NCBI GenBank assembly: GCA_021324115.1
Contig: JAJPJS010000019.1
Span: 1-56,119, forward strand
Source of the DNA: Nitrososphaerota archaeon
Lineage (GTDB): Archaea > Thermoproteota > Nitrososphaeria > Conexivisphaerales > DTJL01
Reading direction: 5' to 3'
Length of the DNA: 56,119 nucleotides
This document shows positions 22,204-34,603 of the stretch, in pieces. The first letter of the stretch is position 1; each line of letters starts with the position of its first letter. Both the position numbers and the translations under genes were made by a program. A model generated the notes under the pieces. That model ran no database searches, was not told the origin of the DNA, and saw only the letters and a program-made list of their open reading frames with translations.

Positions 22204-23541
22204 TTAACTGGCGACAAGCTCGTCTGCAATGTTGAGGGACCTGTCAAGTGCATCCACACCTTTCTGCAACTCCTCCTCCGTAACAATAAGGGGTGGGGCA
22301 ATAACGATATGACTAACCCATCCCATGGCGTAAACACCCATTTCCATCATGCTTTTGGTGACTCTGTCAACTACAAGGGGGCTGCCTTCATATTTGTCCT
22401 TCATGTCGTTTAGAGGCTCCTTTGTCTCCCTGTCCTTGACGAGCTCTACAGCCCAGAACAGCCCCAGCCCCCTTACGTCACCGACACATTTGTGTTTCGT
22501 TTTTACCTGTTCAAGCATTGCACCAAGAAGTCTCCCCTTTCTCTTCGACTCCTCAAGCAGGTTCAGGCGTCTGTATTCAGAGATCACAGTCGGTACAGGC
22601 GCGAGCGCCATCGGATGGGCCTCATAAGTGTGCCCATGGGCGAAGTACTTCTCTTCGAAGAATTCGCTTATTTCTGCCGTCGTAGCCGTGACACCAAGTG
22701 GCATGTATGCACCTGTGACCCCCTTTGCCGTTGTTATGATATCAGGCACCACATTCCACCTGTTCACGGCGAACCATTCACCGATTCTTCCCCAACCGCT
22801 CATAACTTCGTCAGCAATAAGCAGGACTCCATGCTTCTGGGTTATTTCTCTAAGGCGAGGAAGATATTCATCGGGTGGTATGAGCACACCGTTTGTCCCG
22901 ACAACAGGCTCGATAATCACAGCCGCCACGTTTCCCTCCCTTCTTATCATGTAATCCACATAATCGGCGCACGCGACACCACACTCAGGATACTTCTGTC
23001 CGAGCGGGCACCTATAGCAGTATGCATCAGGTGCGAACACCACGCCATCGATCTTACCGACAGGTTCTGCATACCACCTCCTTAGGTCTCCCGTTGCGGC
23101 AATGGAGCCTCCTGTGGAGCCGTGGTAGCTCGAATACCGAGATATCACCTTGTACCTGCCCGTGTACATTCTTGCAATCTTGATGGCTGCTTCATTCGCC
23201 TCCGTACCAGATGTGGAATAGAAGAACTTGGCAAGCCTTTCAGGGAACACCTGAAGCAAAGCTTCCGTCGCCTTCGCTCTGACTTCACATGTGAAGGAGG
23301 GGCTCACATAAGGCAGCTTCATGGCCTGTTCTGCTATGGCCTTCATCACGGCTTCATTCTTGTGTCCCAGGTTGGAGCACATCAACTGAGACGACAGGTC
23401 AAGGTATCCTTTTCCGCTGGAGTCAAAAAAGTAAGAACCTCTTGCATCTACAACATTAAGTGGCATCCACCCTTTCTGCTTTCGCCAGGTGCCGTAAGTG
23501 TGCTCCCTTGTCACTCTCTGGACTTCGTCCGCCTCGGACAT
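22204..23541 (-). CDS. Class III pyridoxal-phosphate aminotransferase (omega-amino acid type)
   Basis: The 445-residue fold-type I enzyme has STSGTEANEAAIKIAR near residue 110, RYSSYHGSTGGSIAATG, the cofactor Asp in LLIADEVMSGWGRIG and the Schiff-base Lys in ITTAKGVTGAYMPLG. These are class III (omega-aminotransferase) marks. Such enzymes move the terminal amino group of beta-alanine, GABA or taurine to pyruvate or 2-oxoglutarate. The adjacent amidohydrolases would make beta-alanine, giving malonate semialdehyde as product. A Cys-rich insertion (AYCYRCPLGQKYPECGVAC) is present after the Tyr-rich loop. It follows the aldehyde dehydrogenase gene by about 55 bases on the same strand. Confidence 0.9.
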   Translation of the reverse strand: MSEADEVQRVTREHTYGTWRKQKGWMPLNVVDARGSYFFDSSGKGYLDLSSQLMCSNLGHKNEAVMKAIAEQAMKLPYVSPSFTCEVRAKATEALLQVFPERLAKFFYSTSGTEANEAAIKIARMYTGRYKVISRYSSYHGSTGGSIAATGDLRRWYAEPVGKIDGVVFAPDAYCYRCPLGQKYPECGVACADYVDYMIRREGNVAAVIIEPVVGTNGVLIPPDEYLPRLREITQKHGVLLIADEVMSGWGRIGEWFAVNRWNVVPDIITTAKGVTGAYMPLGVTATTAEISEFFEEKYFAHGHTYEAHPMALAPVPTVISEYRRLNLLEESKRKGRLLGAMLEQVKTKHKCVGDVRGLGLFWAVELVKDRETKEPLNDMKDKYEGSPLVVDRVTKSMMEMGVYAMGWVSHIVIAPPLIVTEEELQKGVDALDRSLNIADELVAS

Positions 23542-30338: not shown

Positions 30339-30925
30339 TGCGACCTTCTAATATAGTAGGATTTGTGAATAGTTAAACGATTCGAATTGGTATTAATGGG
30401 GGCAAGTAGATGCTCTGGGAATGTTAACAGGGATACCATAAATGCCTTTAGGCGCACATTTACATCTGGCTAACATTTTCAAGCCCGAACGCGGAGACAT
30501 TATGAATCCCAGGTTTCGCATTCTCATTCAACTTTGCTTCCATGGCGAAACGTTCGTTTGATTTGACAAAGCTGTTAATCCTACATGTAGAAGCCGCAAA
30601 AGCGGTTAAATTTCAATGGTTCGAGTACGTGGTGAATCATACTTACAAAATATTGAAAATGAGGCTCCCCAAAACAGTCCTTTTCCTTCCCACCCGCTGG
30701 CGCTAGCTTTTTGATTGTTTAGAAAGTCATCATCAAACTCAAATTACCTAGAAGGAAGGAATCGAATTCAGCCTATCAGCGCTCTAAATCCTGTCTTCTA
30801 ATTTTTCTTTGCCGCATGCTTCAAAAATCAGCCGTCTGTACGAATCGCCCCTACTCAGACATCAATGACACTATTGACAGAGAGCAGATTCCTCACGAAA
30901 CATAAACGAACTCTCGGACCTTGAC
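30339..30925. other. Gene-poor region, about 590 bases
   Basis: No supported gene on either strand: stop codons are frequent in all frames and no remnant could be recognised. Composition appears more AT-rich than the neighbouring operons. Together with 31238-31477 it forms the flank of the broken DNA-binding gene beside tRNA-Leu, so it may be eroded accessory DNA. Confidence 0.4.
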
Positions 30926-31237
30926 TTAATCTTTGAATCCACCATTGCAATGACTTGAAATCCAGCCATTCCATGCCATCTGGCCATTGGGTGGAATCGC
31001 CCAGTAAGCAAAGCCGATCCCAAATAACCAACATGACGGGGACTTGTAAATCGGATATGATTTCCCGCCAGAGTGAAATGATATTTTATCACCAGCATAC
31101 ACGAATGGCAGTAGCGCAAGTACCACTATTAATGCAATCAAGATGCAACAAACTGCCTTAGTCCCCCTCTTGAAGTTGTCACTTCTTATGTGGTTATCGC
31201 TTAAATATATTCTCAACAAAGAGCGACGACTTCGCAA
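30926..31237 (-). CDS. Small membrane or exported hypothetical protein
   Basis: The 103-residue frame has one strong hydrophobic segment (AVCCILIALIVVLALLPFVYA, written as AVCCILIALIVVLALLPF plus VYA) followed by a small polar domain with SFHSGGKSYPIYKSPSCW and two later Cys/Trp-rich parts. This looks like a signal peptide or anchor with an exported tail. No family is recognised. An AT-rich box (ATATATTTAA at 31210-31201) lies inside the annotated N-terminus, so the real start may be a TTG just before the hydrophobic segment. It lies in an otherwise gene-poor area. Confidence 0.45.
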   Translation of the reverse strand: MRSRRSLLRIYLSDNHIRSDNFKRGTKAVCCILIALIVVLALLPFVYAGDKISFHSGGKSYPIYKSPSCWLFGIGFAYWAIPPNGQMAWNGWISSHCNGGFKD

Positions 31238-31477
31238 TTTTCAAGTCGGCAAAGAACCGATTATTATACTCTTGATTATGCAGACTCGGTCAATCTTCGT
31301 TCAATCGTTCAACTTCTTTTGGTTAAGTGATTACGCAAAAATTGCATATCTAATTAGGATACGTTTATTATAAGATGTAAAGTCGTAATGAGGAGAATCA
31401 TGATTTGAATTAACACCGCGTCCCTTTCGGACTACTCCTGTTCCTTCTTGTGGCTCGATTCTTATTTCGGGCTTGTC

Positions 31478-32012
31478 AACCCCTCAACCTCCGCCCTCTT
31501 CCTGTACACTTCACCAACGAATACGCTTCGAACACCTCGAGCTGTTAGCTCAGGGCCCTGACCGTTTGGAGGTCTGACTAGTTGATATTGAGGTAAGACA
31601 GAATCTCTCCATGTGAATGTGAACCCTGCTTTCTCAACAGTTCCAGAAGTTCCCTGTCGAATGTTCTCTTACCCTCGTAACCTTCTTTGCTGAACGCCTC
31701 CATCCTGTACTTTTTCAAGTCCCTGTCCAAGTTTTCCACGGGCTTGAGCAGCCTGTTTTCACCGTTCAGTTTCCTTTCTTCGTCTTCTGTGGTCTTGGGT
31801 TTCCTTATCAGCTCCAGTCTGCTAAGGTAACCTTACTCTTCCTCTTCTTTCTTCAGCGAATTCTCCCCACTTTCCATTACAAATTTCGATATGGACAACC
31901 CGGCCTTGCCAGTCACGCTCTTCGAGTATTCCGCCATTTCTTCTGAAAGTAAATAGACGCAGATCAACCTGTCCTTGATTGTTTCTGTTTTGCCTTTGTT
32001 TTGCCCGGCCAT
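31478..32012 (-). pseudogene. Broken ribbon-helix-helix / winged-helix DNA-binding gene with three in-frame stops
   Basis: From ATG 32012 the frame reads MAGQNKGKTETIKDRL, then VYLLSEEMAEYSKSVTGKAG and LSISKFVMESGENSLKKEE. This is a ribbon-helix-helix-type start, and it stops at TAA (31835-31833) after 59 codons. The same frame, with no shift, continues as clearly protein-like sequence: LIRKPKTTEDEERKLNGENR, then LDRDLKKYRMEAFSKEGYEG, KRTFDRELLELLRKQ and GEILSYLNIN. It then meets TAG (31580-31578), continues SDLQTVRALS, meets TAA (31547-31545), and continues QLEVFEAYSLVKCTGRG. The whole matches my memory of archaeal coiled-coil plus winged-helix regulators found in integrated elements. It lies 50 bases from the 3' end of tRNA-Leu. 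Confidence 0.75.
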
Positions 32013-32113
32013 TGGATTCTGACAATATTCGGTTTTATTTTGATATTGACTGATAAAGAAGTGCGGGGGGTGGGATTCGAACCCACGAAGGCCTTCGCCA
32101 GCGGATCTTAAGT

Positions 32114-32129
32114 GTAGGCGCACCATGCA
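32114..32129 (-). other. tRNA-Leu intron 2, anticodon-stem position 30/31
   Basis: The 16-base segment TGCATGGTGCGCCTAC separates GCGG from A of the anticodon stem. Removal creates the five-pair stem GCGGA/TCCGC. The precursor can form a competing GGCG...CGCC hairpin across the intron, as expected for a bulge-helix-bulge type splice substrate. Confidence 0.78.
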
Positions 32130-32138
32130 CCGCCCCCT

Positions 32139-32156
32139 TTAGTCGCTTCGCAAGCA
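32139..32156 (-). other. tRNA-Leu intron 1, D-arm position about 21/22
   Basis: The 18-base segment TGCTTGCGAAGCGACTAA interrupts the D arm after CCAA and before AGGG. It contains a small hairpin GCTT-GCG-AAGC. Because AA occurs at both borders, the exact cut could move by two bases. Removal restores the CCC/GGG D stem. Confidence 0.75.
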
Positions 32157-32180
32157 TTGGCCTGGCTTGGGGACCCCCGC

Positions 32181-32506
32181 ACGTTTTTGGTTCATTCAGG
32201 CGTGTATTTAGCAGTGTGGAACGAATGATGAAAAACTCTTCCTGGAACCGGGGTTCTTTGCCGGAATCTATATCATTCTATGATCTTATTCCCGTTATTT
32301 CGATTTCCTTTCGTCCCACGCAGGAACAGATCGATTGCGTCTCAGTCTTTAATTCAAGACATCACATCTGGCGTGTCCATTCCCGAAAACCTTTTATCAG
32401 CACCCTGGAAGACCGGTTTCGTTTGCCTACATCAGCATACATTCAGTGGACAGTCCGCTGGTGTCGTGGTCTGTCTTGGATTGCAACTGCTCGGTGAGAT
32501 TGCGAC
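32181..32506. other. Divergent intergenic region between tRNA-Leu and hppA, about 325 bases
   Basis: No supported gene. It carries the TATA-like element of tRNA-Leu near 32205-32212 and must hold the hppA promoter. No unambiguous box A is seen 25-30 bases before 32507; a GGTGAG stretch about 14 bases before the ATG may be the ribosome site. Confidence 0.4.
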
Positions 32507-34603
32507 ATGGTTGGTATCTCTGAATATATCGCCATTGTAAGTGCCGTCATTGGACTGATCTATGCCGTTATTCTGATCCGGTATATTCTCTCTAGAGATC
32601 CAGGAACCGAAAAGATGCAGGAGCTTGCAAATTATGTAAAACAAGGTGCAAACGCATTTCTGCGCAGGGAATACATATGGATCACCCCCGTTGCTATCAT
32701 CCTGGCGGCTGTAATCTCACTCACCGTGAAACCCTATGGGCTTGTGGCACTTGGCTTTGCGATAGGTGCAGCCTTTTCCGCGCTCGCGGGATACATAGGC
32801 ATGAGCATGACGGTCCGTTCAAGCAGCAGGACAGCCGAAGCTGGCAGAAAGGGGATGGACTCCGCCCTTATGGTTGCATTTAGGGGCGGATCTGTCCTTG
32901 GCATGACCGTCCCAGGCCTTGCGCTCTTGGGTCTTGCGATATTCTATCTTTTTGTCCCCCAGCCGGCCGCAGTTGTGGGCTTCGGCTTCGGAGCCAGCGT
33001 GATAGCTATGTTCGTCAGGGTGGGAGGCGGAATCTATACAAAGGCTGCGGACCTGGGTGCCGACATAGCCGGTAAGATAGAAGCTGGTATACCTGAAGAC
33101 GACCCGAGAAATCCAGGCGTTATAGCTGACAACGTAGGTGACAACGTTGGCGACTGCGCTGGAATGGGTGCTGACGTCTACGAGTCTTACATTGTGACTG
33201 CTCTCGCCGCGATTCTCTTGGGAACGCTCGTATTCGAGGGTGGCTCTGTTTTCGGTGTCTCAAGACCCGATCTTGTGCCTTACCCACTTGTTATAGGTGG
33301 AATGGGTGTTCTGGCTTCGATCGCCGGCGGGCTTGCGGTCCGGGGAGCCAAGAGAGGTAAAGCAATGGCTGCCCTTAACAGAGGACTGTACGTCGCCGCG
33401 ATAATAGCTTCAATACTCGATGTTGTCGTCACGCTGTACCTGTTCTCATTCGATCTGAAGTTCGCGTATGCCATGGCGGGTGCGGTTATCCTAGGGCTTG
33501 TCGTGGTCATCGTGATCGAGGCTGTGACCGACTACTACACCTCATACAGGTTTGGTCCTACGAAAGCGATCGCCGAAGCTTCCCAGACAGGTTCAGCCAC
33601 CAACTTCCTTTCGGGCTTCGCCACCGGCCTGAAGAGTGCTGCACCGATCGCCCTGATACTGGTGGTCGCAATTGCAATTTCTTATTCGCTTGGCAACTGG
33701 GCGGTTGGAGCATCCTGTTCTCCCAACACCATCTGTAGCGCAGGGGTCTACACAACATCAATCACCACGATGAGCATGCTTTCGCTCACGGGCATCATAT
33801 TATCCATCGATGCCTTTGGACCCATCACCGACAACGCCAACGGCATAGTCGAGATGGCGGGCATAGAGGGTGTTAGAGAGGTGACTGATGAACTCGATGC
33901 CATTGGCAACACAACAAAGGCCACCACGAAGGGTTTCGCAATTGGTTCGGCTGCGCTTGCAGCTCTTTCTCTCTTTATCGCATATCAGAGCGAGGTAAGC
34001 GCAGCATACCTGAACCATGGTGTAACCAATCCTCCAGAGTACGTGCTTTCTGACCCCCTGCTTCTCATTGGCCTCCTTATTGGTGGATTGCTGCCGTTCT
34101 ATTTCTCTTCATTCCTGATAGGGGCTGTGGGAAAGGCCGGGTTCAAGATGGTGAACGAGATAAGGAGGCAATTCAATGAGATCCCAGGTCTTCGCGAGGG
34201 CAAGGCCAGTCCGGATTACGAGAAGTGTGTCGACATAAGCACGAGGGCCGCTCTTCGTGAACTCGTAGCACCGGGTGCACTCGCTATTCTTACCCCGATC
34301 ATTGTTGGCGTTGTACTCGGTCCTGTAGCTCTTGGAGGCGTGCTCATCGGAAGCGTTGTGTCAGGAGTGTTCTTTGCCCTCATGATGGCGAACGCCGGAG
34401 CCGCATGGGACAATGCAAAGAAGTACATAGAAACTGGCATGTACGGCGGCAAGGGGACTCCAACCCATGCCGCGGCCGTGAGCGGGGATACAGTTGGAGA
34501 CCCATTCAAGGACACCGCAGGGCCTAGCATAAATTCACTCATCAAGGTTCTGAATACGATATCAATCGTGTTTGTACTTGTTTTTGTAATGCTGCACCTT
34601 TAG
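32507..34603 (+). CDS. hppA: Membrane-bound proton-translocating pyrophosphatase, K+-independent type
   Basis: The 698-residue protein has about 16 membrane helices and all membrane pyrophosphatase signatures: GGGIYTKAADLGADIAGK, DDPRNPGVIADNVGDNVGD (metal-pyrophosphate site), ITDNANGIVEMAG and GDTVGDPFKDTAGPSINSL. It couples hydrolysis of pyrophosphate to ion export across the cytoplasmic membrane. The segment GNTTKATTKGFAIGS has Lys and Thr at the two places that separate K+-independent enzymes (Lys, Thr) from K+-dependent ones (Ala, Gly). A K+-independent proton pump is therefore predicted. It stands alone, transcribed away from tRNA-Leu. Pyrophosphate from acetate activation and tRNA charging would be its fuel. 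Confidence 0.95.
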   Translation: MVGISEYIAIVSAVIGLIYAVILIRYILSRDPGTEKMQELANYVKQGANAFLRREYIWITPVAIILAAVISLTVKPYGLVALGFAIGAAFSALAGYIGMSMTVRSSSRTAEAGRKGMDSALMVAFRGGSVLGMTVPGLALLGLAIFYLFVPQPAAVVGFGFGASVIAMFVRVGGGIYTKAADLGADIAGKIEAGIPEDDPRNPGVIADNVGDNVGDCAGMGADVYESYIVTALAAILLGTLVFEGGSVFGVSRPDLVPYPLVIGGMGVLASIAGGLAVRGAKRGKAMAALNRGLYVAAIIASILDVVVTLYLFSFDLKFAYAMAGAVILGLVVVIVIEAVTDYYTSYRFGPTKAIAEASQTGSATNFLSGFATGLKSAAPIALILVVAIAISYSLGNWAVGASCSPNTICSAGVYTTSITTMSMLSLTGIILSIDAFGPITDNANGIVEMAGIEGVREVTDELDAIGNTTKATTKGFAIGSAALAALSLFIAYQSEVSAAYLNHGVTNPPEYVLSDPLLLIGLLIGGLLPFYFSSFLIGAVGKAGFKMVNEIRRQFNEIPGLREGKASPDYEKCVDISTRAALRELVAPGALAILTPIIVGVVLGPVALGGVLIGSVVSGVFFALMMANAGAAWDNAKKYIETGMYGGKGTPTHAAAVSGDTVGDPFKDTAGPSINSLIKVLNTISIVFVLVFVMLHL

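Follow-up and report, generated by a model that had tools for sequence, protein, structure and literature searches.

A tRNA-Leu(UAA) gene interrupted at two non-canonical positions in a Nitrososphaeria archaeon

Structure of the locus

In this work, we analyse a stretch of 56,119 nucleotides (the window) from the draft genome of a Nitrososphaerota archaeon (2.14 Mb, 27 contigs, ~95% complete). The minus strand of the window carries a tRNA-Leu(UAA) gene that consists of three exons separated by two short introns. Its parts are listed below; the position numbers 21/22 and 30/31 are our own assignment according to standard tRNA numbering.

32062..32180, minus strand: pre-tRNA-Leu(UAA) gene, 119 nt, CCA not encoded
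32157..32180, minus strand: exon 1, tRNA positions 1-21, gapless against intronless orthologues
32139..32156, minus strand: intron 1, 18 nt, TGCTTGCGAAGCGACTAA, at position 21/22 in the D arm
32130..32138, minus strand: exon 2, positions 22-30, from orthologue comparison
32114..32129, minus strand: intron 2, 16 nt, TGCATGGTGCGCCTAC, at position 30/31 in the 5' strand of the anticodon stem
32062..32113, minus strand: exon 3, from position 31 through A73, the discriminator base, 98% identity over 52 nt to the orthologues L041/L042
32108..32110, minus strand: anticodon TAA, called by ARAGORN on the spliced sequence
32205..32210, minus strand: TATA-like box (TAAATA), a putative promoter element read from the sequence, located 25-30 nt before the gene

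The gene sequence from 32180 to 32062 on the minus strand, with the introns bracketed, is GCGGGGGTCCCCAAGCCAGGCCAA [tgcttgcgaagcgactaa] AGGGGGCGG [tgcatggtgcgcctac] ACTTAAGATCCGCTGGCGAAGGCCTTCGTGGGTTCGAATCCCACCCCCCGCA. Excision of both segments restores a standard tRNA, an 85-nt product that ARAGORN calls tRNA-Leu(taa) and in which all stems are intact. The unspliced gene receives no call from ARAGORN and none from Rfam at the gathering score, and the whole-genome scan places only a 15-bit tRNA match at its 3' end. The intron mode of ARAGORN also gives no call on the raw gene because it is not designed for introns outside the anticodon loop.

Both introns belong to the non-canonical class, lying at 21/22 and 30/31 rather than at 37/38. 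A first-pass annotation, made from the sequence alone, had proposed the coordinates, lengths, cut points, anticodon and 85-nt product of this gene, and all of them are exact to the base. It had also described the gene as having no intron at 37/38, and the cut points obtained from the orthologue alignment confirm this, since they fall at 21/22 and 30/31 only.

The gene adjoins an H+-pyrophosphatase gene (32507-34603), and this neighbourhood is repeated in two relatives (L082 and L093). Between the tRNA gene and an open reading frame of 286 aa there are ~1.7 kb without an obvious gene (window 30340-32060); the open reading frame itself has no Pfam or NCBIfam family match.

Comparison with related genomes

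We regard the comparison of orthologous sequences as the decisive evidence for the cut points, stronger than a parse of the single gene. Within the same order, some tRNA-Leu(UAA) genes have no intron (L041/L042, G008/G006); the spliced product aligns to them without gaps, with 80 of 85 positions identical, and 77 positions match the intronless genes L051 and L056. Both introns are present in relatives of families f1 and f2; the 21/22 intron occurs alone in relatives of family f5, and the 30/31 intron alone in L047/L048, while L041, L042, L051 and L056 have neither. One further gene (L057) combines the 30/31 intron with another just past the anticodon loop. Taken site by site, intron 1 is missing at its exact point in L041, L042, L047, L051 and L056 and is carried by relatives in families f1, f2 and f5, and intron 2 is missing at its exact point in L041-L046, L049, L051 and L056.

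The exons and both intron sites are conserved in at least two families. In contrast to its constant flanks, the D-arm segment varies widely among the relatives in both length (14-25 nt) and sequence. The body is 85 nt long in all parsed copies save one, L036, where an additional acceptor-stem base brings it to 86 nt. In the relative G001, Leu(UAA) is encoded twice (L036 and L065); the copy with the additional base, located in the 3' strand of the acceptor (CCCCCCTGCA), may be a pseudogene or may reflect misassembly.

Splice motifs

Each intron can be placed in a bulge-helix-bulge (BHB) structure, with a central helix of 4 bp, bulges of 3 nt and a cut past the second base of each bulge, intron 1 in a relaxed form. 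The components are as follows, where a slash marks the cut.

32159..32162, minus strand: intron 1, 5' half of central helix H, GGCC, then bulge AA/T
32141..32144, minus strand: intron 1, 3' half of central helix H, GACT, 3/4 pairs with one A-C mismatch, then bulge AA/A
32145..32155, minus strand: intron 1, internal hairpin h', GCTT-GCG-AAGC, a strong inner hairpin
32132..32135, minus strand: intron 2, 5' half of central helix H, GGGC, then bulge GG/T
32116..32119, minus strand: intron 2, 3' half of central helix H, GCCT, 4/4 pairs, then bulge AC/A
32120..32128, minus strand: intron 2, internal hairpin h', GCA-TGG-TGC

Intron 2 has the full motif, with four of four central pairs, three of three outer pairs and the inner helix GCA/TGC. 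In intron 1 the outer helix has two of three pairs, and since the central helix also contains the A-C mismatch, we classify this motif as relaxed.

The register of the motifs was examined in the relatives by letting each cut follow the second of the three bulge bases and scoring the 4-bp central helix, both in place and after sliding it by -4 to +2. At 21/22 (23 distinct sequences), the average fraction of pairs formed is 0.85 at the predicted register, against at most 0.54 at slid registers and 0.41 for random 4-mers drawn with intron composition; at 30/31 (26 distinct sequences), the corresponding averages are 0.99, at most 0.57 and 0.43. Covariation within the 21/22 helix is modest, with 106 of 5000 permutations reaching the observed pairing when the kinship of the sequences is ignored. 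For the 30/31 helix it is uninformative (1109 of 5000 permutations) because the exon half of this helix hardly varies. The two non-canonical introns of the first-pass annotation are supported by both the orthologue comparison and the BHB geometry.

Alternative explanations

The cloverleaf might have arisen by chance or through misassembly. When no cut points are given, our parser picks the identical two introns in 32180-32062. To calibrate it, we generated 300 dinucleotide shuffles of the gene interior only, retaining the acceptor and the T arm: a free search for two excisions yields some weaker cloverleaf in 117 of them, and therefore the parse alone is weak evidence and its score is not used as proof. 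However, only 1/300 shuffles equals or passes the observed score, and the same architecture recurs in independent genomes, so that the orthologues already refute a chance match or assembly artefact, which we consider extremely improbable. Note that the parser also returned two-intron solutions for L007 and L010 that are evidently wrong; ARAGORN reads both as ordinary intronless genes.

Another explanation would be a decayed, inactive pseudogene with small insertions, whose function is covered by another gene supplying tRNA-Leu(UAA). That standard finders overlook the unspliced gene, and that the draft is incomplete, would fit such a case. However, no second Leu(UAA) gene was found in the draft, whose ~95% completeness leaves a small chance of another copy. 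The stems recovered by excision, the exons and sites shared across families and the identical H+-pyrophosphatase neighbour in two relatives all argue against decay as well. A further possibility is that only the anticodon-stem segment is removed and that the D-arm segment is retained as an enlarged D loop. The imperfect D-arm helix, with its A-C mismatch, leaves some room for this, but intronless orthologues lack the segment at that exact point, its length and sequence vary widely between fixed flanks, and in 23 distinct sequences the splice helix recurs where predicted. We reject both explanations and give each a very small residual probability. Finally, the tRNA-Leu(UAA) of bacteria and plastids is known for a group I intron, a self-splicing element of hundreds of nucleotides in the anticodon loop. 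The same isoacceptor is interrupted, yet the two cases are unrelated: here the introns have 16-18 nt and helices of the protein-recognised type, and a group I reading is rejected on size, location and these helices.

Splicing endonuclease and ligase

The genome contains two tRNA-splicing endonuclease genes, encoding separate catalytic (alpha, 180 aa) and structural (beta, 192 aa) subunits. The alpha subunit belongs to TIGR00324 and PF01974, and its best PDB match is 3P1Z_B (E 3.4e-47), a catalytic subunit from Aeropyrum pernix. It retains the histidine that is altered in 3AJV together with the equivalents of K44 and R46 (H, K, K); in the alignment of the Crenarchaea-specific loop, EKPRG of A. 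pernix corresponds to AKPKG, so that both the lysine at 44 and a basic residue at 46 are present. These loop residues are tied to cleavage and to broad substrate recognition (PMC12397907). The beta subunit lacks the catalytic histidine. The pair fits a heteromeric alpha-beta enzyme with an alpha subunit of the crenarchaeal type. The first-pass annotation had suggested a heteromeric endonuclease of relaxed specificity and a genome search for it; both subunit genes were found by that search, and the loop lysine of alpha and the missing histidine of beta are consistent with the suggestion. The beta gene follows rtcB, which encodes the tRNA-splicing ligase, after a gap of 45 nt (L032:19-1791), and the two likely form a tRNA-splicing operon.

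Other tRNA genes of the genome

The remaining four leucine tRNAs (CAA, CAG, UAG and GAG) are encoded at separate loci. The tRNA-Leu(CAA) gene (L064:125-245; G000:C17:65224-65344) has introns of 23 and 13 nt at the same two sites, Leu(CAG) (L077) and Leu(UAG) (L027) have one anticodon-stem intron each, and Leu(GAG) (L017) is intronless.

Within the scope of our intron census, which covers loci detected by tRNA models, this genome (G000) is very rich in non-canonical introns, and three-intron genes are possible. For example, tRNA-Asn(GUU) (L030:1475-1600; G000:C27 about 22980-23100) reads with three non-canonical introns, one past position 8 and one on either side of the anticodon; ARAGORN calls the excised product tRNA-Asn, but two of the three splice motifs are weak, with 2/4 and 3/4 of the central pairs formed. 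Similarly, tRNA-Lys(UUU) on the minus strand (L102; G000:C19:133990-134260) seemingly has about three introns, one of them in the T loop; a hand-made three-intron product is called tRNA-Lys, automatic decomposition failed, and the cut points are provisional. D-arm introns are also seen in Phe, Arg(CCU), Glu(CUC), Ile(GAU), Gly(GCC) and Glu(UUC), and others lie in the T arm of Ala(UGC) and in the anticodon stem and variable region of Met (loci L018, L021, L024, L025, L028, L029, L100 and L101). In addition, a probable tRNA-Trp (L103; G000:C19:134870-135110) has a long intron with CTGA and ATGA-like words, which could be a C/D guide RNA by analogy with some archaeal tRNA-Trp introns.

Relation to known systems

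A search of the genome collection with the two-intron Leu(UAA/CAA) pattern gives 18 matches, part of them on contigs from members of the same family as the genome studied here. All 18 titles name Nitrososphaeria, Nitrososphaerales, Thaumarchaeota, Methylarchaceae or unclassified archaea, in keeping with the earlier suggestion that the pattern carries lineage information.

Precedents among Thermoproteales and Thaumarchaeota had also been proposed, and these hold, but the nearest one is Caldiarchaeum subterraneum rather than a member of Thermoproteales. Its tRNA-Leu(UAA) is reported to contain multiple introns, and introns of that genome also occur in D, V and T arms (PMC3293823). The same isoacceptor has more than one intron in both organisms; the lineage differs, and the likeness is one of intron multiplicity. 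A review (PMC4090602) describes non-canonical introns, including those at 30/31, several per gene and with relaxed motifs, as in Pyrobaculum tRNA-Pro(UGG) with three introns, and alpha2-beta2 endonucleases in Crenarchaeota, Nanoarchaeota and Thaumarchaeota. Our gene resembles the Thermoproteales cases in its several short non-canonical introns, its BHB or relaxed motifs and the predicted alpha2-beta2 type of endonuclease (PMC4090602), and differs from them in lineage and in that this tRNA-Leu(UAA) has no 37/38 intron. Position 30/31 is within the list given in the review, whereas 21/22 is absent from that short list, which ends with "etc." (PMC4090602).

Interpretation

With a probability that we put at about 95%, the locus is a functional gene for tRNA-Leu(UAA) in a Nitrososphaeria archaeon, with two introns that are spliced by an alpha-beta endonuclease and exons that are joined by RtcB. 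We infer that the gene is functional and transcribed and that folding of the precursor would place each intron in a BHB or relaxed bulge-helix structure. The two kinds of subunit would assemble into a heterotetramer that cuts inside both bulges of each intron, RtcB would join the three exons into the 85-nt class II tRNA, and the mature tRNA would read UUA, plus UUG by wobble. Since non-canonical and multiple tRNA introns are already known in this group, we present the gene as a well-supported new example and not as a discovery.

In Nitrososphaeria, Leu(UAA) and Leu(CAA) both have introns at 21/22 and 30/31, and the Leu(UAA) genes of close relatives show all four intron states. The introns may have passed from one isoacceptor gene to another, or certain preferred sites may have acquired them more than once; we offer this tentatively, as somewhat less than an even chance. 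If true, the leucine intron family would be a ready series for testing the origin and loss of archaeal tRNA introns.

In practice, tRNA annotation of such genomes under bacterial settings drops essential genes. Scattered tRNA introns are well known to go together with alpha-beta endonucleases, and the analysis extends this association to a Nitrososphaeria family that has received little study. The relatives, which have no intron, one or both at identical sites, form a useful set for work on how introns are gained and lost, and the lasting interest of the locus lies in this comparative series and in the unusually intron-rich tRNA set of the genome.
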